Made by a program: the position numbers and the translations under genes. Below are positions 7,826-33,628 of a DNA stretch of 36,305 nucleotides, one piece after another (positions within the stretch are counted from its first letter, which is position 1; each line of letters begins with the position of its first letter). This DNA is from a virus: positions 1-36,305 of the IMG/VR virus record IMGVR_UViG_3300035698_008418; one strand, given 5' to 3'. Under the pieces are notes generated by a model. It had not been told where the DNA came from. It did no database searches and saw nothing but the letters and a program-made list of their open reading frames with translations.

Positions 7826-8836
7826 ATGGCTACCACACGATTGAGCGACATTATCGACGTAACAGTATTTCGAGATCTAGCGCCAGTAAACAGCCCCGAA
7901 AAGACCGCGTTTTTTCAAGCGGGCATCATTACCGCTAACCCACTATTAAACGAACTAGCAAGCGCGGCGGGTAAGACTGCAGAGCTACCATTTTGGAAAG
8001 ACCTAGATGGTTCACAAGAAGTTAACTATTCTAGTGATAATCCGGCAAATTCTGCAACACCTCAAAAAATAGAACAAGGCGAACAGATCGCCCGTAAAGC
8101 ATTAGTTAACCAAGGTTGGCAGGTTGCAGATCTCGCTAGCGAATTGGCAATGGGCGCTAAAGCTATGGACGCTATACGCGCCCGTACAGACAGCTATTTT
8201 ATGAAGCAATGGCAACGCCGCCTAGTTGCTACAACTAATGGCGTATTAGCTGATAATATCGCTAATGACTCAGGCGATATGGTTGTTGATGTTGCATCGG
8301 AAACGATTGCAGGTCAAAGCGCTACAACTAAATTTAACCGTGATTCTTTCACCGATGCAGTTTTCACGCTAGGCGATAGCGCGGAAGATCTAGAGGCGAT
8401 CGCTGTTCACAGTACAGTTAAAGCGCAAATGATCAAAAACGACGACATAATCTATATGCCGGATTCACAAGGCAACTTGACTATCCCAACCTATATGGGC
8501 TTGCGTGTTATTGTTGACGATGGTTTAACTGTTAAGGCGGGTACTACCGACGGCTTCAAATACACCTCTGTATTGTTTGGTCAAGGCGCGTTTGGATATG
8601 GCGAAGGATCTCCAACCGTACCAGTAGAGATCGAACGCGAAGCCTCACAAGGTGACGGCGGCGGTATTGAAACGCTATGGGTTAGAAATACCTGGATCTT
8701 GCATCCTTTCGGTTTTCAAAACACAGGAACACCGGCGGCCACAAGTTTCACACAAGCCGAGCTTTCAACAGCCGCAGTATGGGATCGCGTTGTAGAGCGT
8801 AAAAATGTCCCGTTGGCTTACTTAGTAACTAACTAA
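7826..8836 (+). CDS. major capsid protein
   Basis: 336 residues with AAAGGA 8 bases before the ATG. Family signatures from the coat-protein group seen in many proteobacterial siphophages are clear: RLSDIIDVTVF at the start, ELPFWKDLDGSQEVNYSSD, GEQIARKALVNQGW, and NGVLADNIANDSGDM. It forms the HK97-fold shell. Position between scaffold and connector genes and the terminator just downstream agree with its high expression. Codon use here is the most GC-balanced of the head genes, as expected for a highly expressed protein. Confidence 0.95.
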   Translation: MATTRLSDIIDVTVFRDLAPVNSPEKTAFFQAGIITANPLLNELASAAGKTAELPFWKDLDGSQEVNYSSDNPANSATPQKIEQGEQIARKALVNQGWQVADLASELAMGAKAMDAIRARTDSYFMKQWQRRLVATTNGVLADNIANDSGDMVVDVASETIAGQSATTKFNRDSFTDAVFTLGDSAEDLEAIAVHSTVKAQMIKNDDIIYMPDSQGNLTIPTYMGLRVIVDDGLTVKAGTTDGFKYTSVLFGQGAFGYGEGSPTVPVEIEREASQGDGGGIETLWVRNTWILHPFGFQNTGTPAATSFTQAELSTAAVWDRVVERKNVPLAYLVTN

Positions 8837-22596: not shown

Positions 22597-22971
22597 ATGA
22601 AAACCAGATCGCAAGATGCAACAATAAGTCATGTAAAAGAAAGGAGATTAGACGGTTTGGATTTTGTTAAAACTTTCGTTATGCCCGCAGTATTGGCGGC
22701 AATTGGCGTTTATGTTGGGATCCAAGTTGCTGTTGCTGAATTAGTGATCGAAGTGGGGTATATAAAAAGAGACCTAGCTTTAGAATCTGACAGCACTAAA
22801 CTGGCCGTGAAAAGCCAAAACGCGCTATTAGAGAAAATAGTTGATAATCAAATAAAACTAACTCAGCTAGCTAGTTTAAACGAAAATAACGCGCAATTGC
22901 ACGAATCCCAAAAAGCCGAACTTTTGCGAATTAAAGACAGGTTAAGAATTTTAGAAGGGATCAGATTATGA
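22597..22971 (+). CDS. membrane protein with coiled coil, possible spanin-like lysis protein
   Basis: 124 residues. A single transmembrane helix at about 24-47 (VKTFVMPAVLAAIGVYVGIQ) is followed by an acidic/hydrophobic turn and then a long coiled coil (about 60-120, NALLEKIVDNQIKLTQLA, LHESQKAELLRIKDRLRIL). An N-terminal TM helix plus a coiled coil is the layout of inner-membrane spanins, and it lies two genes before the endolysin, so that role is reasonable. No outer-membrane lipoprotein partner with a lipobox is seen. It overlaps the next gene by four bases. Confidence 0.55.
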   Translation: MKTRSQDATISHVKERRLDGLDFVKTFVMPAVLAAIGVYVGIQVAVAELVIEVGYIKRDLALESDSTKLAVKSQNALLEKIVDNQIKLTQLASLNENNAQLHESQKAELLRIKDRLRILEGIRL

Positions 22972-23615
22972 GGTTTTTAATTAGAGTTTTATTGGCCTTA
23001 ATAATGATCCCGTTATTAATACCTGTAACAATTTACGCAAGATATAAAAACCTTGATCGCTTGCCTTTTGGTTTTGAAAAGATAAGCGGCAATAAAGAGG
23101 ATAATTGGGACGGTAACGGGGGCGCTTTAGTTGGTCGCAAGCATTGGAACTTGAACGGGACTGTAAGCCTCAATAACGGCGTTAATGGATGGTATCAAGA
23201 CTATTTAAGGCAACGCGGTATTATATGGCAACAACTAGGTTTTTGGGGCCAATGGTGGCACTCTTACAAATGGTGTGCCTTGCGTAATCCGGTATGGAAC
23301 GTTCGATACTTGCCTTACTTAAGCGCGTCATGTAATAAAGCTGATGTTTTAGAGTTTCAAAACTCCGGCAATTGTGAGGAAGTTATCAAAAATTCAAACA
23401 TTAATTTATCTTATAGCTTTTGGTGGAAAAACAAAAACGGGAAAAAATACAAATCTAACTACCGGCATATAAAAATAAAAGGTAAATATTTTTTACATTT
23501 ACGTTGGGGTTGGAAAGCATATCCGAAGCTATTTAAAATTAATAAAACGCCACTATTTAAACAAAGAACTGTACCGATCTTTAACTTTGAAATAGTGAAC
23601 ATTAAAAAACAATAG
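22968..23615 (+). CDS. membrane-anchored Trp-rich protein, DUF7338-like
   Basis: 215 residues, ATGA overlap. A strong N-terminal hydrophobic helix (FLIRVLLALIMIPLLIPVTIY) is a signal anchor. The body is rich in Trp (about 15), with GFWGQWWHSYKWCALRNPVWN at its centre, the signature of a phage family I recall as DUF7338. The basic, aromatic body may sit at the membrane surface. Its location between a spanin-like gene and the endolysin suggests a lysis or envelope role. Function not established. Confidence 0.6.
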   Translation: MRFLIRVLLALIMIPLLIPVTIYARYKNLDRLPFGFEKISGNKEDNWDGNGGALVGRKHWNLNGTVSLNNGVNGWYQDYLRQRGIIWQQLGFWGQWWHSYKWCALRNPVWNVRYLPYLSASCNKADVLEFQNSGNCEEVIKNSNINLSYSFWWKNKNGKKYKSNYRHIKIKGKYFLHLRWGWKAYPKLFKINKTPLFKQRTVPIFNFEIVNIKKQ

Positions 23616-23625
23616 GCCGTAAATT

Positions 23626-24015
23626 ATGAGCTTTAAACTTGGTAAGAGTAGCAAAATAAACTTAAAAGGCGTAAATGCTCAATTATACGCGATCATTGAA
23701 CTAGCGTTGACTATTTCAAAGGTTGATTTTGGGATCCCCTCAAACGGTGGTTTACGAACTGCAGACGAGCAACACAAACTTTTTATTGAGGGCCAAAGCC
23801 AGTTGGACGGCTACAATAAAAAATCTAACCATCAAAGCGGCAACGCCTTTGATGTTTTTGCTTATGTTGACGGCGCGGCCAGTTATGACGAAAAGGATTT
23901 ATTAGAGGTTGCAACGGCAATATTGGCGGCGGCTAGTCAATTAAAAATACGGCTACGATGGGGCGGCCATTGGGTTAATTTTGTCGATATTCCTCATTTT
24001 GAGCTAGTAATTTAA
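23626..24015 (+). CDS. endolysin, M15 family peptidase
   Basis: 129 residues, a single catalytic domain with no signal peptide. The zinc site is complete: H69 and D76 in SNHQSGNAFDV and H124 in DIPHFE, with D121 and E126 flanking, as in the VanY / L-alanyl-D-glutamate peptidase group used by many phages. GLRTADEQHKLFIEG at about 42-56 is another conserved block. It would cut peptidoglycan cross-bridge peptides once a holin releases it. A GxxRT motif and the usual length support the call. Confidence 0.92.
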   Translation: MSFKLGKSSKINLKGVNAQLYAIIELALTISKVDFGIPSNGGLRTADEQHKLFIEGQSQLDGYNKKSNHQSGNAFDVFAYVDGAASYDEKDLLEVATAILAAASQLKIRLRWGGHWVNFVDIPHFELVI

Positions 24016-24033
24016 TTAATAAGGTATATACAA

Positions 24034-24528
24034 ATGAATTGGGACGATCTAAAAGGTGTAATAGGTAAAGCGGCCCCGTTTATCGGTACAGCTTTAGGCG
24101 GCCCCGCCGGAACCGCGATCGGTGGAATGGTGGCGAATGTATTAGGGGTAGAGGCAACGCCGGACGCAATCAGCGAGGCAATAAAAGCCGATCCCGACGC
24201 GCTAGTAAAACTAAAACAATTCGAGCTAGAGAACCAACAGCAGATCCGCGAAATGGCGTTTAAAACCTTGGACGCTGAATTAAAGGACACCCAAAACGCA
24301 AGAAAGACTCACGATAAAAACCCAATGCCTATGATCATATGTATTGTTCTAACTGCTATGGTTGCGGGTGGCGCTTACATGCTTTTTACAATGGACATAC
24401 CGCCAGAAAATAAAAACATAGCCAATTTGTTGTTTGGTACATTGCTTGCTAAATGGGGGGATTCAATCGCCTATTGGGTTGGAACAACAAGATCAAGCGC
24501 GGCAAAAACTGAAATGTTGAGGCGTTGA
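24034..24528 (+). CDS. holin, three-TM GTA type (putative)
   Basis: 164 residues. Hydrophobic segments lie at about 8-38 (Gly/Ala-rich IGKAAPFIGTALGGPAGTAIG), 98-120 (MPMIICIVLTAMVAGGAYMLF) and 128-150. The middle helix is charged and ends in LKDTQNARKTHDKNP. This matches the 'holin of 3 TMs' family (PF11351) first named in gene transfer agents. It lies 18 bases after the endolysin. It would open the cytoplasmic membrane to release the endolysin. Confidence 0.75.
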   Translation: MNWDDLKGVIGKAAPFIGTALGGPAGTAIGGMVANVLGVEATPDAISEAIKADPDALVKLKQFELENQQQIREMAFKTLDAELKDTQNARKTHDKNPMPMIICIVLTAMVAGGAYMLFTMDIPPENKNIANLLFGTLLAKWGDSIAYWVGTTRSSAAKTEMLRR

Positions 24529-24570: not shown

Positions 24571-24599
24571 GCCGTTGATAATACCAACGGCTTTTTTTT
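24571..24599 (+). terminator. strong rho-independent terminator ending the late operon
   Basis: GCCGTTG (24571-24577), seven-base loop, CAACGGC (24585-24591), then eight T. The perfect seven-pair stem and clean U-tract make it the strongest terminator in the window. It lies 42 bases after the holin stop and separates late genes from the early promoter at 24640. Confidence 0.93.
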
Positions 24600-24639
24600 G
24601 CCTAAAATAAATTAAATGAAAATAAAGTAAATTAAATGA

Positions 24640-24668
24640 TTTACAAGAGGTAAAGTAATCCGTATACT
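24640..24668 (+). promoter_or_regulatory. early promoter 1 with TTTAC/GTAAA palindrome
   Basis: TTTACA (24640-24645), 17-base spacer, TATACT (24663-24668). The -35 box overlaps the inverted repeat TTTAC-AAGAG-GTAAA (24640-24654). Promoters at 25926 and 32791 have the same boxes, spacer and palindrome. A dimeric regulator bound to the palindrome would block polymerase. Confidence 0.85.
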
Positions 24669-24699
24669 AGATTTATCAACTAAGGGAAGGGCCGAAACA

Positions 24700-24912: not shown

Positions 24913-24944
24913 AACCAACCGTCCCGAAAGGGACACAACCAACC
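24913..24944 (+). ncRNA. GNRA hairpin 1 flanked by AACCAACC repeats
   Basis: AACCAACC (24913-24920), stem GTCCC (24921-24925), loop GAAA, stem GGGAC (24930-24934), two bases, AACCAACC (24937-24944). There is no U-tract, so it is not a terminator. It fills the gap between two early genes and ends shortly before the Shine-Dalgarno of the gene at 24960. It would be part of the mRNA leader. Confidence 0.75.
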
Positions 24945-24959
24945 AAAGAGAGAACAAAA

Positions 24960-25406
24960 ATGATTACTCAAGAAACTAACCTTTACGCCCTAATCACTGA
25001 AAAGCTAGCAACAAAAACAGCGGCACTGCATGAACTTGTAAAAGCTAGCGGGTTAAGCATTGCAGAGGCGGCCAGAATAAGCCATAGAGCAAGCCAATTG
25101 CGAAGCCCTAACGAATGGGCCGAGTTTTACAAAGATCAGCGCAAGGACGACGGCACAAGCATTAATATGTTATTTGATGAAATAACAGGATTAACCGAGA
25201 CGTTAAAAAGCGATCTTATGTATTGCCCGAAAAAATACGTAGTAATTAGCGAAGGGGAGAGCTTACAAAGCCCGTCCGGTTTTAACTTAAGCGATCGAGT
25301 TTTTATTCAAACTAAAATCGCAATACATACCGATACTTTAAAAAATAAATTTCCCGACGTTGGCGGCCGTTTGGCGGCTTGTGATTTAGATAAAACTTGT
25401 AATTAA
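24960..25406 (+). CDS. hypothetical early protein
   Basis: 148 residues. A helical N-terminus includes 'ELVKASGLSIAEAARISHRASQLRSP' (about 24-49), which has the spacing of an HTH but is not a clear match. It is followed by NEWAEFYKDQRKDDG and a β-rich second half. There are cysteines at about 77, 140 and 147. The stop is joined to an AACCAACC motif. Family unknown; cytoplasmic by composition. Confidence 0.65.
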   Translation: MITQETNLYALITEKLATKTAALHELVKASGLSIAEAARISHRASQLRSPNEWAEFYKDQRKDDGTSINMLFDEITGLTETLKSDLMYCPKKYVVISEGESLQSPSGFNLSDRVFIQTKIAIHTDTLKNKFPDVGGRLAACDLDKTCN

Positions 25407-25437
25407 ACCAACCGGCCCGGGAGGGCCAAAACCAACC
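25406..25437 (+). ncRNA. GNRA hairpin 2 flanked by AACCAACC repeats
   Basis: AACCAACC (25406-25413), GGCCC (25414-25418), loop GGGA, GGGCC (25423-25427), two A, AACCAACC (25430-25437). The stem and the bases around it are identical to hairpin 6 at 33104. It starts inside the last codon/stop of the previous gene and precedes an AAGG ribosome-binding site. Confidence 0.75.
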
Positions 25438-25453
25438 AAAAAAAGGCTATAAA

Positions 25454-25621
25454 ATGAAAATAACAAAAGAACAACTAGATAAGTTAATTATTTTATCGGT
25501 TTGCATGGCTGACGAATTGCCGGTAAACGAAAAAAACGAAATGATAAAAACTAGCTTTATGTTGCTAATGGACGATATAAAGCACGACAACGGACTTATT
25601 AAACCAAGAATAGAGAGCTAA
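25454..25621 (+). CDS. small early protein, unknown
   Basis: 55 residues; ATG eight bases after AAAAGG. It is a helical, leucine/methionine-rich protein (EQLDKLIILSVCMADELP) with an acidic patch near ENKNE-like residues 28-31 and a second helix (KTSFMLLMDDIKHD). It is not long or hydrophobic enough to be an obvious membrane protein. The stop is fused to the next leader motif (TAACCAACA). Confidence 0.55.
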   Translation: MKITKEQLDKLIILSVCMADELPVNEKNEMIKTSFMLLMDDIKHDNGLIKPRIES

Positions 25622-25684
25622 CCAACAGGCCCGAGAGGGTCGCAACAAAGCAATTTTAAAAGGGGGTTGAAAGCGCAACCAACC
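25620..25684 (+). ncRNA. GNRA hairpin 3 with downstream AACCAACC
   Basis: AACCAACA (25620-25627, one mismatch to the motif), GGCCC (25628-25632), loop GAGA, GGGTC (25637-25641; one G-U pair), then 35 bases that include a run of five G, and AACCAACC (25677-25684). The GGGGG at 25662-25666 is not used as a start signal, because the next ATG is at 25698. Confidence 0.65.
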
Positions 25685-25697
25685 CAAAGGATCTAAA

Positions 25698-25916
25698 ATG
25701 AATCACGCAATAAAAATATTAAAAGAGCAGATCGATAAAAGAGAGCAAACGATTAGAAAACACGTTAGCAACTATTGGCATATACAAACAAAAGTTTGTT
25801 TTAATGAAGATGAAGCAAAGCAAAAAAAAGTAGATTTGAACTTTCAAAAACAGCAAATAGATTTTTTGCAAAAAGAGATCGCAGAATTTGAATCAGCAAT
25901 ACTTCAAATAAAGTAA
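25698..25916 (+). CDS. small coiled-coil early protein
   Basis: 72 residues. Almost the whole chain is a charged amphipathic helix (KILKEQIDKREQTIRKHV, FQKQQIDFLQKEIAEFES) with a short break containing one cysteine. This is a typical coiled coil. No enzymatic motif is seen. It probably acts by binding a partner. AAAGGA precedes the ATG. The stop is next to promoter 2. Confidence 0.6.
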   Translation: MNHAIKILKEQIDKREQTIRKHVSNYWHIQTKVCFNEDEAKQKKVDLNFQKQQIDFLQKEIAEFESAILQIK

Positions 25917-25924
25917 ATTTAATC

Positions 25925-25954
25925 CTTTACAAGTGGTAAAGTAATATATATACT
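25925..25954 (+). promoter_or_regulatory. early promoter 2 with CTTTAC/GTAAAG palindrome
   Basis: TTTACA (25926-25931), 17-base spacer, TATACT (25949-25954). A perfect six-base inverted repeat CTTTAC-AAGTG-GTAAAG covers 25925-25941. Downstream, the untranslated leader can form a weak four-pair hairpin (25966-25978) and contains AACCAACC at 25979-25986. Confidence 0.85.
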
Positions 25955-26003
25955 ACTTCCATCAAGTCGAGAAACGGCAACCAACCAAAGCAAGGAAAAA
26001 ACA

Positions 26004-26168
26004 ATGAAAAACGAATTTAGACAAGTGGGCCAGTTAATCACTTTTGATTTAAACGGAGCTACAGAAAAAGCTGTAATAATTAGTTATTCAAATAATTTTA
26101 ACGGAACTATGAATTTTAAAACATCGAAAGGATCGATTAATTCAATAAACGTTATTAAGTTTTATTAG
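26004..26168 (+). CDS. small early protein, unknown
   Basis: 54 residues, ATG after CAAGGAAAAAACA, the first gene from promoter 2. The sequence is β-like: QVGQLITFDLNGATEKAVII, then SYSNNFNGTMNFKTSKGS, suggesting a small barrel or sheet. Acidic residues are few. No family recognised. The stop TAG is followed immediately by the GGCCAACC leader. Confidence 0.55.
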   Translation: MKNEFRQVGQLITFDLNGATEKAVIISYSNNFNGTMNFKTSKGSINSINVIKFY

Positions 26169-26189
26169 GCCAACCGGCCCGCAAGGGCC
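26168..26189 (+). ncRNA. GNRA hairpin 4
   Basis: GGCCAACC (26168-26175, a variant of AACCAACC), GGCCC (26176-26180), loop GCAA, GGGCC (26185-26189). Downstream comes AAACCAACAAAC and an AAGGGTATATT leader before the ATG at 26222. The loop differs from the other copies but still fits GNRA. Confidence 0.72.
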
Positions 26190-26221
26190 AAAATAAACCA
26201 ACAAACAAATAAGGGTATATT

Positions 26222-26434
26222 ATGAGAATTTTAACACTAGATAGAAATAACGACGATGCACCGTTAAAGGTTATTGATCAATCGTCAGATAAAGATTTTA
26301 ATTGCGGTATAGGCACAGACCATGAAAATATTAACTTTAATTTTAGCGGAGACAATCAAACTGTATTTATAGACGTAAGTAAGCATGATGCAAAGTTTTT
26401 GCGTGATCGCTTAAATGAAATGAAATTAGACTAG
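26222..26434 (+). CDS. small acidic early protein
   Basis: 70 residues with the AAGGGTA leader. The chain is acidic (about 17 D/E), with a mixed β start (MRILTLDRNNDDAPLKVIDQ), 'CGIGTDHENINFNFSGD' in the middle and a C-terminal helix (AKFLRDRLNEMKLD). The acidic composition would suit a DNA-mimic or an anti-host-factor protein, but nothing specific supports this. Confidence 0.55.
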   Translation: MRILTLDRNNDDAPLKVIDQSSDKDFNCGIGTDHENINFNFSGDNQTVFIDVSKHDAKFLRDRLNEMKLD

Positions 26435-26460
26435 AACCAACCGGCCGGAATTGTCCGGCC
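26435..26460 (+). ncRNA. hairpin 5 with ATTG loop
   Basis: AACCAACC (26435-26442), GGCCGGA (26443-26449), loop ATTG, TCCGGCC (26454-26460). This copy has a longer seven-pair stem and a loop that is not GNRA, but the same flanking motif and the same place between stop codon and next leader. No U-tract follows. Confidence 0.65.
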
Positions 26461-26493
26461 AAATAAAAACCAAAAAACACAAAAAGGCAAATT

Positions 26494-26958
26494 ATGAAAA
26501 CTTTTAAAATACTAACACTATTAGTAACAATATTAATTTCAACTACAGCGGCGGCAAAATGGGAACTACTGCAGACCGTAGACGCGTTTAACGATACAAC
26601 GGTAACAATGGCAACGGTTAGAAGTAACGACGGCAAAGGCTTTATTGTGGCCCGCTGTAGTGAGACTAAAAAACTCGATGTAATGGTATCAACCGGTAAG
26701 TATTTGGGATCAGACAGTATCAAGGTAAAAATACGATTTGATAAGTTAAGCCCGAGCGAAAGTTATTGGGGGATCAGCACAAAGGGAACAACAGTATTTA
26801 GCCCTTATGATGAAACCGATTTAATTATTAAACTGATAACCAAGCATAATGACTTAGCGCTACAGACAACCGATTTTAGAGGAACAGAGGACGTTGTTAT
26901 GTTTAGCTTGAAAAATAGCAGTGAATCAGTAAATGAAGTTTTAAAAGCCTGTAATTAA
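26494..26958 (+). CDS. exported VasI-like protein
   Basis: 154 residues with a clear signal peptide (MKTFKILTLLVTILISTTAAA, cleavage probably after residue 21). The mature part starts with KWELLQTVD and has the layout of the VasI family (PF11319, found beside type VI secretion genes): 'TVTMATVRSNDG', 'GFIVARC' with C55, 'VKIRFDK', 'YWGISTKGTTVFS', and a C-terminal cysteine C153 likely to pair with C55. It would lie in the periplasm. In a phage, a superinfection or envelope role is plausible but unproven. It is distant enough from VasI that I call it by pattern. Confidence 0.55.
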   Translation: MKTFKILTLLVTILISTTAAAKWELLQTVDAFNDTTVTMATVRSNDGKGFIVARCSETKKLDVMVSTGKYLGSDSIKVKIRFDKLSPSESYWGISTKGTTVFSPYDETDLIIKLITKHNDLALQTTDFRGTEDVVMFSLKNSSESVNEVLKACN

Positions 26959-26989
26959 AAACTAACCAAAAACCAAAAAGGATAAGCAA

Positions 26990-27196
26990 TTGAAAAACTT
27001 TAAAAACAATATCATAGCTATCATAACACTAATGATCACTTTGTTAATTTCATCGGTAACTTATGCCGGCACTGCATTTTATACCGGAGAGCGCACAACC
27101 GGAATGACCAAGCAATGTTATTACGATTATCTAGGCAATCAGTACACTATAACACTAGATAGCTATAAGCTATGCCCGCTTAATATTACCGTTTAA
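26990..27196 (+). CDS. small exported protein, TTG start
   Basis: 68 residues. TTG at 26990 follows AAAAAGGATAAGC and gives a basic N-terminus (KNFKNN) before a 17-residue hydrophobic core (IIAIITLMITLLISSVT), with a likely signal cleavage after TYA (residue 26). An internal ATG would remove the basic start. The mature part of about 42 residues has cysteines at 43 and 62, suited to a disulphide in the periplasm. It directly follows the VasI-like gene, so the two exported proteins may act together. The terminator at 27204 closes this unit. Confidence 0.6.
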   Translation: MKNFKNNIIAIITLMITLLISSVTYAGTAFYTGERTTGMTKQCYYDYLGNQYTITLDSYKLCPLNITV

Positions 27197-27203
27197 AAAA
27201 TAT

Positions 27204-27228
27204 AGCCTCTTAAAAATGAGGCTTTTTT
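27204..27228 (+). terminator. rho-independent terminator after exported proteins
   Basis: AGCCTC (27204-27209), eight-base loop, GAGGCT (27218-27223), T-tract 27223-27228. It lies eight bases after the stop of the small exported protein and ends the early operon that began at promoter 2. Confidence 0.85.
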
Positions 27229-27310: not shown

Positions 27311-28237
27311 ATGAATCTTTTGAAACTGGCTGATAAATTTGAAGCTCGCGACATTGAGTGGAGAGTACAGCAAAGCGGAAAAACCCGGGACAACCTTTGG
27401 GCCTTAGTGATTCCATATATAACCAATAGGGCAATAATGCAAAGACTCGACGACGTTTGCGGCCCTAACGCATGGAAGAATGAATTTATTGCTAGCCCTT
27501 GCGGTAAGGGCTACCAATGCGGGATCAGTATAAAGATCGGGGATGAATGGATCACGCGTTGGGATGGGGCAGAAACAACCGGCAACGGCGGCATTGATCC
27601 GGTTAAATCAACTATGTCTAATTCAATGAAGCGGGCCGGCGTACAGTGGGGTATTGGTCGCTACCTTTACCGGTTGGAAACAACGTTTACAAAGGCGGCT
27701 TATTGCGACGCTCGCAAAGATTGCGCCGAGGGTTGGGTTTATCAATACGTAAATAAGAAAGGCGATCAAGCGGCTTACGGTATGCAATGGATGATCCCCG
27801 AGTTGCCAACCTGGTCCGTCCCAACAACACAGGCAGATATAAACAATTATCTAGCTGAAATAAACAAAGCTGAAACAATCGAACAACTTAAAAAAGCGTT
27901 TAAATACGCTTACAACTTAGCAGAGAGCGAGCAGGATCCTAAACTTATGGATAAATTCACCGAGGCAAAAGACAAGGTAAAACAAAGCATATTAAAAGGT
28001 GAATCTGAAAAGCTAGAGCTAGAAAGCAATCAAGCGGTAAAATTTGTTCAAGATCAAATAAAGCTATTTAAGACTTTGACCAATGAAAGCGTTTTAAACG
28101 GCCAATTCAAATTATCACTTGCTAGCGCCGGCAAGATACAAGATCCAGAAGTGCAAAACAAAGCAATAGTCGCTTTAAACAAAGCTAAGGCGGAAACGTT
28201 GAAAGCATTACAAAACCAACCAAAAAACGAAGGATAA
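27311..28237 (+). CDS. Rad52/22-like single-strand annealing protein
   Basis: 308 residues. The N-terminal annealase domain is clear: RDIEWRVQQSGKTRDN (about 14-29), IPYITNRAIMQRLDDVCGP, 'CGISIKIGDEWITRWDGAETT' and 'STMSNSMKRAGVQWGIGRYLYRLE', all hallmarks of the phage Rad52/DdrA-type family (PF04098). The C-terminal half (about 195-308) is charged helix. It would pair complementary strands during phage recombination and concatemer formation. SSB, the coiled-coil gene and NinG nearby form the recombination module. The leader is AAGGGTAAATT. Confidence 0.88.
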   Translation: MNLLKLADKFEARDIEWRVQQSGKTRDNLWALVIPYITNRAIMQRLDDVCGPNAWKNEFIASPCGKGYQCGISIKIGDEWITRWDGAETTGNGGIDPVKSTMSNSMKRAGVQWGIGRYLYRLETTFTKAAYCDARKDCAEGWVYQYVNKKGDQAAYGMQWMIPELPTWSVPTTQADINNYLAEINKAETIEQLKKAFKYAYNLAESEQDPKLMDKFTEAKDKVKQSILKGESEKLELESNQAVKFVQDQIKLFKTLTNESVLNGQFKLSLASAGKIQDPEVQNKAIVALNKAKAETLKALQNQPKNEG

Positions 28238-32205: not shown

Positions 32206-32781
32206 ATGGCAAATAAAAAAAGGCGTTGCAGGTTTTGCAAAGAATATTCCATAGCTAGCGAAGGTAAAATAATAAACGGCGGTTTCTATTGCTCCCTAGA
32301 TCACGCTGTAAGCTACGGAAAGAAGAAAGCCGGCCCAATGCTAGAAAAGATCGTTAAAAGCCAACACAGAGCCAGAAAGGCGGCAATAAAGCCACAAACG
32401 AAACGATTAAACGATTTGCAAACGATAGTTAATCAATATATCCTCTTAAGGGATACCGATCGAGATTGTATATCGTGCAATAGACCGAACGACGGATCGC
32501 ACCAAAGACATGCTAGCCATTACAAAAGCCGAGGCGCTAACAGCTTTTTAAGGTTTAACACTTTAAACATTCATGCTTCATGCGCCCAATGTAACAACCA
32601 CAAAAGCGGGAATATTGCAGAGTATCGAATTTTATTAGAGGGCAGGTACAATTTAGAATTTGTTGAAGGACTGGACTATGCGCCAACTATACGCAAGTTT
32701 TCGGACGAATGGATCTTAAGAGCTAAAGCCATATTTAGAAAAAAAATAAGGCTGTACGAAAAAAGATTTAGAAATAAGTAA
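32206..32781 (+). CDS. ninG: NinG/Rap recombination endonuclease
   Basis: 191 residues, AGGCGG before the ATG. An N-terminal zinc-binding pair (CRFC ... YCSLDH) precedes a basic helix region (KAAIKPQTKRLNDLQ). The NinG core follows: CISCNRP, 'QRHASHYKSRGAN' (HNH-like histidines), 'RFNTLNIHASCAQCNNHKSGN', and a basic tail (IFRKKIRLYEKRF). NinG/Rap resolves recombination intermediates in lambdoid phages. Full length; the best-conserved gene of this module. Confidence 0.93.
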   Translation: MANKKRRCRFCKEYSIASEGKIINGGFYCSLDHAVSYGKKKAGPMLEKIVKSQHRARKAAIKPQTKRLNDLQTIVNQYILLRDTDRDCISCNRPNDGSHQRHASHYKSRGANSFLRFNTLNIHASCAQCNNHKSGNIAEYRILLEGRYNLEFVEGLDYAPTIRKFSDEWILRAKAIFRKKIRLYEKRFRNK

Positions 32782-32789
32782 ATAAAACC

Positions 32790-32819
32790 CTTTACATTTG
32801 GTAAAGCAATCCGTATACT
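32790..32819 (+). promoter_or_regulatory. early promoter 3 with CTTTAC/GTAAAG palindrome
   Basis: TTTACA (32791-32796), 17-base spacer, TATACT (32814-32819). A perfect inverted repeat CTTTAC-ATTTG-GTAAAG covers 32790-32806. The centre differs from copies 1 and 2, while the arms are the same, as expected for a protein-bound operator. It starts nine bases after ninG. Confidence 0.87.
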
Positions 32820-32867
32820 AATTTCCAAGTTAAGAGATTAAGCCAACCAACCAAGGGTACTAAAATT

Positions 32868-33089: not shown

Positions 33090-33103
33090 GATTACAACTA
33101 ACC

Positions 33104-33127
33104 GGCCCGGGAGGGCCAAAACCAACC
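33104..33127 (+). ncRNA. GNRA hairpin 6 followed by AACCAACC
   Basis: GGCCC (33104-33108), loop GGGA, GGGCC (33113-33117), then AAAACCAACC (AACCAACC at 33120-33127). The upstream side reads CTAACC, a degenerate half of the motif. Stem, loop and right flank are the same as hairpin 2 at 25414, about 7.7 kb away, while the surrounding genes differ. Confidence 0.72.
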
Positions 33128-33146
33128 AACAAACCAAGGGTAAATT

Positions 33147-33469: not shown

Positions 33470-33628
33470 ATGAATTTAATAGATTTTATCGAAAAGAACT
33501 ACCCAACAAAAGTCGCTTTTGCTAAAGCTATGAACACTAGTCGCCAACAGGTTAATAACTGGATTAAGATGGGTTGCATTGTAAAGGGTAAGGTTCTTTA
33601 CAGACCAATAAAAAAGATCGGGGGTTAA
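33470..33628 (+). CDS. Cro-like helix-turn-helix protein
   Basis: 52 residues, AAGGGC before the ATG. The core reads FIEKNYPTKVAFAKAMNTSRQQVNNWIKMG at about residues 6-35: helix, turn (NTS), recognition helix with QQVNNW, as in Cro/C1-type and YdaS-like repressors ('...A..LGVS...V..W...G'). The basic tail is VKGKVLYRPIKK. A gene of this size would act as a dimer, and the CTTTAC/GTAAAG palindromes need a dimeric protein, so it is the leading candidate to bind them. There is no CI-like partner. Confidence 0.8.
   Translation: MNLIDFIEKNYPTKVAFAKAMNTSRQQVNNWIKMGCIVKGKVLYRPIKKIGG

Follow-up and report, generated by a model that had tools for sequence, protein, structure and literature searches.

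The viral DNA analysed here (the window, 36,305 nucleotides, positions 1-36,305 of IMG/VR virus record IMGVR_UViG_3300035698_008418) appears to carry, at the close of an early phage operon, two independent accessory genes, each coding for a small product that would be Sec-exported and fold, with a single disulfide, in the periplasm. What gene 1 retains of the VasI superfamily is the C-terminal (VasI-C/IalB/MotY-N-like) beta-sandwich alone, and its likeliest role would be that of an early-made periplasmic protein-binding domain acting to change the infected cell's envelope; the leading guess is superinfection exclusion, by blocking the tail or entry step of an incoming phage, as T4 Spackle does. 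This explanation as a whole is given a probability of roughly 0.4. Within it, the product of gene 1 is very probably an exported accessory protein and not a component of a type VI secretion system (T6SS), and exclusion as the role is a tentative proposal drawn from analogy.

The window is viral and not a T6SS locus, its ORFs and their family matches comprising only phage genes. The terminase is ~70% identical to counterparts in PaMx25 and Stenotrophomonas phages, among others, the nearest relatives of the window Erf are in Pseudoalteromonas and Vibrio phages, and the phage is non-lambdoid. No integrase was seen among the window ORFs and family matches examined, no close relative at the DNA level was found in the phage collection, and a search of viral contigs via Erf returned no relatives.

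The two consecutive genes placed at 26494-27196 by a preliminary description of this DNA are both confirmed as ORFs. Gene 1 (26494..26958, plus strand, 154 aa) begins MKTFKILTLLVTILISTTAAA/KW, the slash marking a cleavage-site-like AAA/K; a predicted signal peptide of about residues 1-21 is followed by a VasI-C/IalB-type beta-sandwich domain. Gene 2 (26990..27196, plus strand, 68 aa, TTG start) begins MKNFKNNIIAIITLMITLLISSVTYA/GT, with a cleavage-site-like TYA/G, and has a predicted signal peptide of about residues 1-26 ahead of a beta-meander of ~42 aa. Signal peptides were judged by inspection and hydropathy rank: both proteins have a lysine-bearing N-region, a hydrophobic core and a small-residue cleavage site, and among 61 likely window genes they rank third (gene 1, 2.95) and fourth (gene 2, 2.79) in N-terminal hydropathy, with just a 63-aa ORF and one gene of the lysis region ahead of them, which supports the export signals described earlier. 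The cysteine pairs noted in that description are also borne out, since each protein has exactly two, C55 and C153 of gene 1 being invariant in 18/18 aligned family sequences and C43 and C62 of gene 2 across its family alignment; each pair would probably form a disulfide after export. No N-terminus in the window is more hydrophobic than that of a 215-aa lysis-region protein (22968-23615), which has no PHROG match.

Sequence comparison places gene 1, as a new and divergent member, in a phage family that is already known but functionally uncharacterised. PHROG 1848, whose function is not known, matches residues 16-154 of its 154 (E=9.3e-19), and a profile of phage homologues built without the window protein recovers gene 1 at E=7.8e-21, the best E among 500 shuffled controls being 0.025. 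Gene 1 on its own as a query retrieved no relatives from viral contigs; an alignment was required, and with it 75 related loci were found. A phage-borne VasI-like protein is thus not new in itself, PHROG 1848 already covering the family. Relatives in Klebsiella, P2-like and E. coli phages are 24-33% identical to gene 1, and the family recurs in phages that are otherwise unrelated. There are two forms, a short one with a signal peptide and one domain, as in the window, and a long one with 1-3 RLxCYD-type units ahead of the domain. The 'TagO'-annotated lambdoid (pro)phage proteins of PHROG 1848 resemble gene 1 in being of the short form, with a single C-terminal domain and two invariant cysteines, and in lying in an early/replication region, but identity is 23-30% and the window phage is not lambdoid.

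The match to VasI is more remote. Pfam VasI (PF11319) aligns with gene 1 over profile positions 52-182 at 16.2 bits, below its curated cut-off of 26.5, and TIGR03360 gives no match. The family profile of gene 1, however, aligns with a VasI encoded inside a T6SS locus with an HHalign probability of 93.8 (E 1.7e-7). Taken together, the profile, shuffle-control and HHalign results show that gene 1 is a real but distant homologue of the VasI C-terminal domain. VasI, TagO and EvfG of T6SS loci have in common with gene 1 this domain, the cysteine pair and an R-x-D...W...F-x-L...AC pattern, but gene 1 lacks their N-terminal Cys...RLxCYD region (which the long phage relatives have, and which reads RLACFD in the T6SS VasI), falls under both curated cut-offs and lies outside a T6SS locus. 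Of the VasI layout previously claimed for gene 1, the C-terminal part therefore stands, as distant homology, and the N-terminal part does not.

Homology to a VasI encoded within a T6SS locus raises the possibility that gene 1 interferes with type VI secretion, or shields the infected cell from it, the VasI-C domain acting as mimic or decoy. In V. cholerae, secretion of Hcp and VgrG-1 is intact without VCA0118 (VasI) and killing is weakened (PMC3166118), so that VasI itself has no clear role, and the sparing of Hcp secretion would be compatible with a domain acting on a periplasmic step. Nevertheless, gene 1 retains the C-terminal domain only, and no link to T6SS was found in the window ORFs or in the context of the lambdoid homologue. 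Among 143 sampled gammaproteobacterial genomes, the VasI profile matched in 7 and IcmF in 38, with both matches on one contig in 0 of 143 and no IcmF match anywhere in 5 of the 7; the one strong VasI of the sample (genome G146) is inside a T6SS locus, near a contig end. The lambdoid homologue, present in 82/5426 complete E. coli genomes, is named 'type VI secretion system-associated protein TagO' in RefSeq and, in the record examined, follows replication gene P and a broken ren and precedes ybcN/ninE, with phage genes around it. The failure of VasI and IcmF matches to share a contig in any genome, together with the phage context of the relatives, means that the label 'VasI-like' does not imply type VI secretion. 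The RefSeq name is likely a misleading annotation transfer, and on prophage genes it should not be taken as a secretion role. A type VI role for gene 1 is possible but unsupported, and is considered decidedly improbable. One such 'TagO'-named gene in a lambdoid prophage lies at 8001-8495 of the locus sampled from E. coli NZ_CP128581.1 (L092).

Gene 1 is predicted to adopt the IalB/MotY-N fold. Its AlphaFold2 model (pLDDT 86, confident outside the signal peptide) is a beta-sandwich with two helices, and the top PDB matches are Bartonella IalB (3dtd, Z 11.8), a flagellar LPHT-ring chain presumed here to be MotY (8z5n_B, Z 11.6) and the N-domain of MotY (2zf8, Z 10.3), the next row of the search reaching only Z 6.5. 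The predicted fold of gene 1 agrees with those of IalB and the MotY N-domain along almost the entire mature protein, but at just 10-16% identity and with no common function established. It also matches uncharacterised proteins of the large phages VH7D, RB16 and KP15. A search for a solved structure by sequence found none. The two MotY matches could suggest that gene 1 halts motility by binding a host machine that shares its fold, for example the MotX/MotY flagellar ring. This is very improbable, in that the resemblance is at fold level only (11-12% identity), IalB scores equally well, the sequence link goes to VasI and not to MotY, and there are homologues, too, in phages of E. coli and Klebsiella, hosts that are not known to have a MotX/MotY flagellar ring. 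A broader reading holds that a single periplasmic fold underlies the VasI C-terminal domain, IalB and the MotY N-domain, that phages took it repeatedly as a stand-alone module, and that this module blocks, within the envelope, incoming contractile or tail-tube machines (phage tails or T6SS); taken jointly, these propositions are a long shot. A narrow literature search, which is not proof of absence, found nothing linking these folds.

Gene 2 belongs by sequence to a family of very small exported proteins from phages that is separate from that of gene 1 and is found at 36 viral-contig loci, with the motif GTAF-x-GE-x2-TGMTKQC-Y-x-YLG ... CPL-x-I-x-V. Relatives in aquatic phages lie near primase/helicase genes; in the loci tested, the neighbours are primase/helicase, exonuclease or DnaB-like genes, with a terminase in one, and a weak relative in a Klebsiella phage lies beside recombination nucleases. 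A single-sequence search of isolated phages with gene 2 gave nothing and a query with the sequence of a relative gave weak matches, and in 274 gammaproteobacterial genomes there was no match in a search that had no positive control. PHROG 4641, likewise a small protein family without known function, matches residues 8-63 weakly (E=4.8e-5). The gene 2 model is a four-strand meander (pLDDT 85), and the fold search with it returned nothing above Z 4.2 and so no convincing match to a known fold. At one of the viral-contig loci (L111, 523-894) the domain occurs twice in tandem within a single ORF.

A conserved pairing of genes 1 and 2 was considered and rejected. In flanks of up to ~5 kb on each side of the loci, no other gene 2 locus has a VasI domain and no other gene 1 locus has gene 2. 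As the two families are never found together elsewhere, the genes are regarded as independent accessory genes.

The locations of the relatives vary between phages. In phage IdasGreatGrand the gene 1 relative is downstream of O, in a P2-like phage it adjoins the integrase, and in a Klebsiella phage it lies just ahead of the tape-measure gene; some relatives may be expressed in lysogeny or late. Such scattered positions, together with strong divergence between phages, would fit cargo that is neutral or matters only under certain conditions and plays no part in the usual test infections, but the invariance of the cysteines and core residues at 23-30% identity implies selection on the fold, and this account of the genes is held to be somewhat unlikely. 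In two loci from P2-like phages (L016, 6199-7429; L124, 1495-2722) the long VasI-like protein has three Cys...RLxCYD units and follows a small membrane protein that is zinc-ribbon-like, with which it may form a module of its own.

Superinfection exclusion is put forward as the leading guess by analogy with T4 Spackle (gp61.3), a periplasmic disulfide protein, made early, that can exclude other phages by inhibiting the tail lysozyme of the incoming one (PMC7677548). Spackle resembles the predicted products of genes 1 and 2 as an early, small, exported, disulfide-bearing phage protein, but it is a helical bundle with no relation to them in sequence or fold, and is thus a precedent for the strategy only. 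A search for VasI and superinfection exclusion together found no paper in the library used. The function of VasI and its 'TagO' relatives is not agreed, and the phage version with the C-domain only is a small, easily expressed test case; if it is true that the phage protein excludes other phages, this would be the first clear activity for the domain.

The early timing proposed for the genes is suggested by gene content, the unit being flanked by lysis-region genes on one side and by Erf/SSB/replication genes on the other. For the unit 26004-27196, the closest good promoter-like site on its upstream side is a sigma-70-like TTTACA-17-TATACT at 25926..25954 on the plus strand, a consensus match only, and between it and gene 1 are two small ORFs of 54 and 70 aa (26004..26434, plus strand) with no convincing family. 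An intrinsic-terminator-like hairpin with a T tract (27204..27223, plus strand, fold z -3.5) begins 7 bp past the gene 2 stop. The preliminary description had these genes closing a defined early unit; the hairpin agrees with this, but there is no clear promoter between it and the next gene, Erf at 27311, so that an end of the unit at this point is only probable.

The lysis-region genes just upstream (22597-24528), with the predicted periplasmic location, are relevant to a further explanation, namely that gene 1 or 2 affects lysis timing or peptidoglycan, for instance by inhibiting, in the periplasm, a lytic enzyme or lysis from without. Mutants of spackle also have lysis phenotypes (PMC7677548). 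The explanation is nonetheless judged unlikely, as a terminator-like hairpin (24571-24591) and a different promoter set the unit of gene 1 apart from the lysis region, and family profile searches gave no match to a lysozyme-inhibitor family.

The operator shared by the promoter of the unit, as described earlier, is upheld. A palindromic operator, CTTTACAAGTGGTAAAG (25925..25941, no strand assigned), overlaps the -35 of the promoter that lies ahead of gene 1, and a pattern search located further copies at 24639-24655 and 32790-32806. The pattern CTTTAC-N5-GTAAAG thus has 3 sites with <=1 mismatch in the window (24639, 25925 and 32790), with 0.15 expected by chance and 0/100 shuffles reaching 3, and all 3 overlap a TTTACA-17-TATACT promoter-like site. 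Candidates for the operator-binding protein are the small HTH-like ORFs at 33470 and 33824. The viral contigs contain no exact occurrence of the operator pattern, and no relatives were obtained by this route. On alignment, the promoter/operator regions are near-identical 73-nt copies (24620-24692, 25906-25978 and 32771-32843), with CTTTAC-N5-GTAAAG over the -35 in all. A separate 38-nt element, AACCAACCGGCCCGNNAGGGCC-AAAACCAACCAA, has six intergenic copies between short early genes (24913-24950, 25406-25443, 25620-25657, 26168-26205, 26439-26476 and 33096-33133), each with a GC-rich hairpin of 5-7 bp, and is possibly an RNA-processing or translation element; in the copy ahead of gene 1 the stem differs and the shape is the same.
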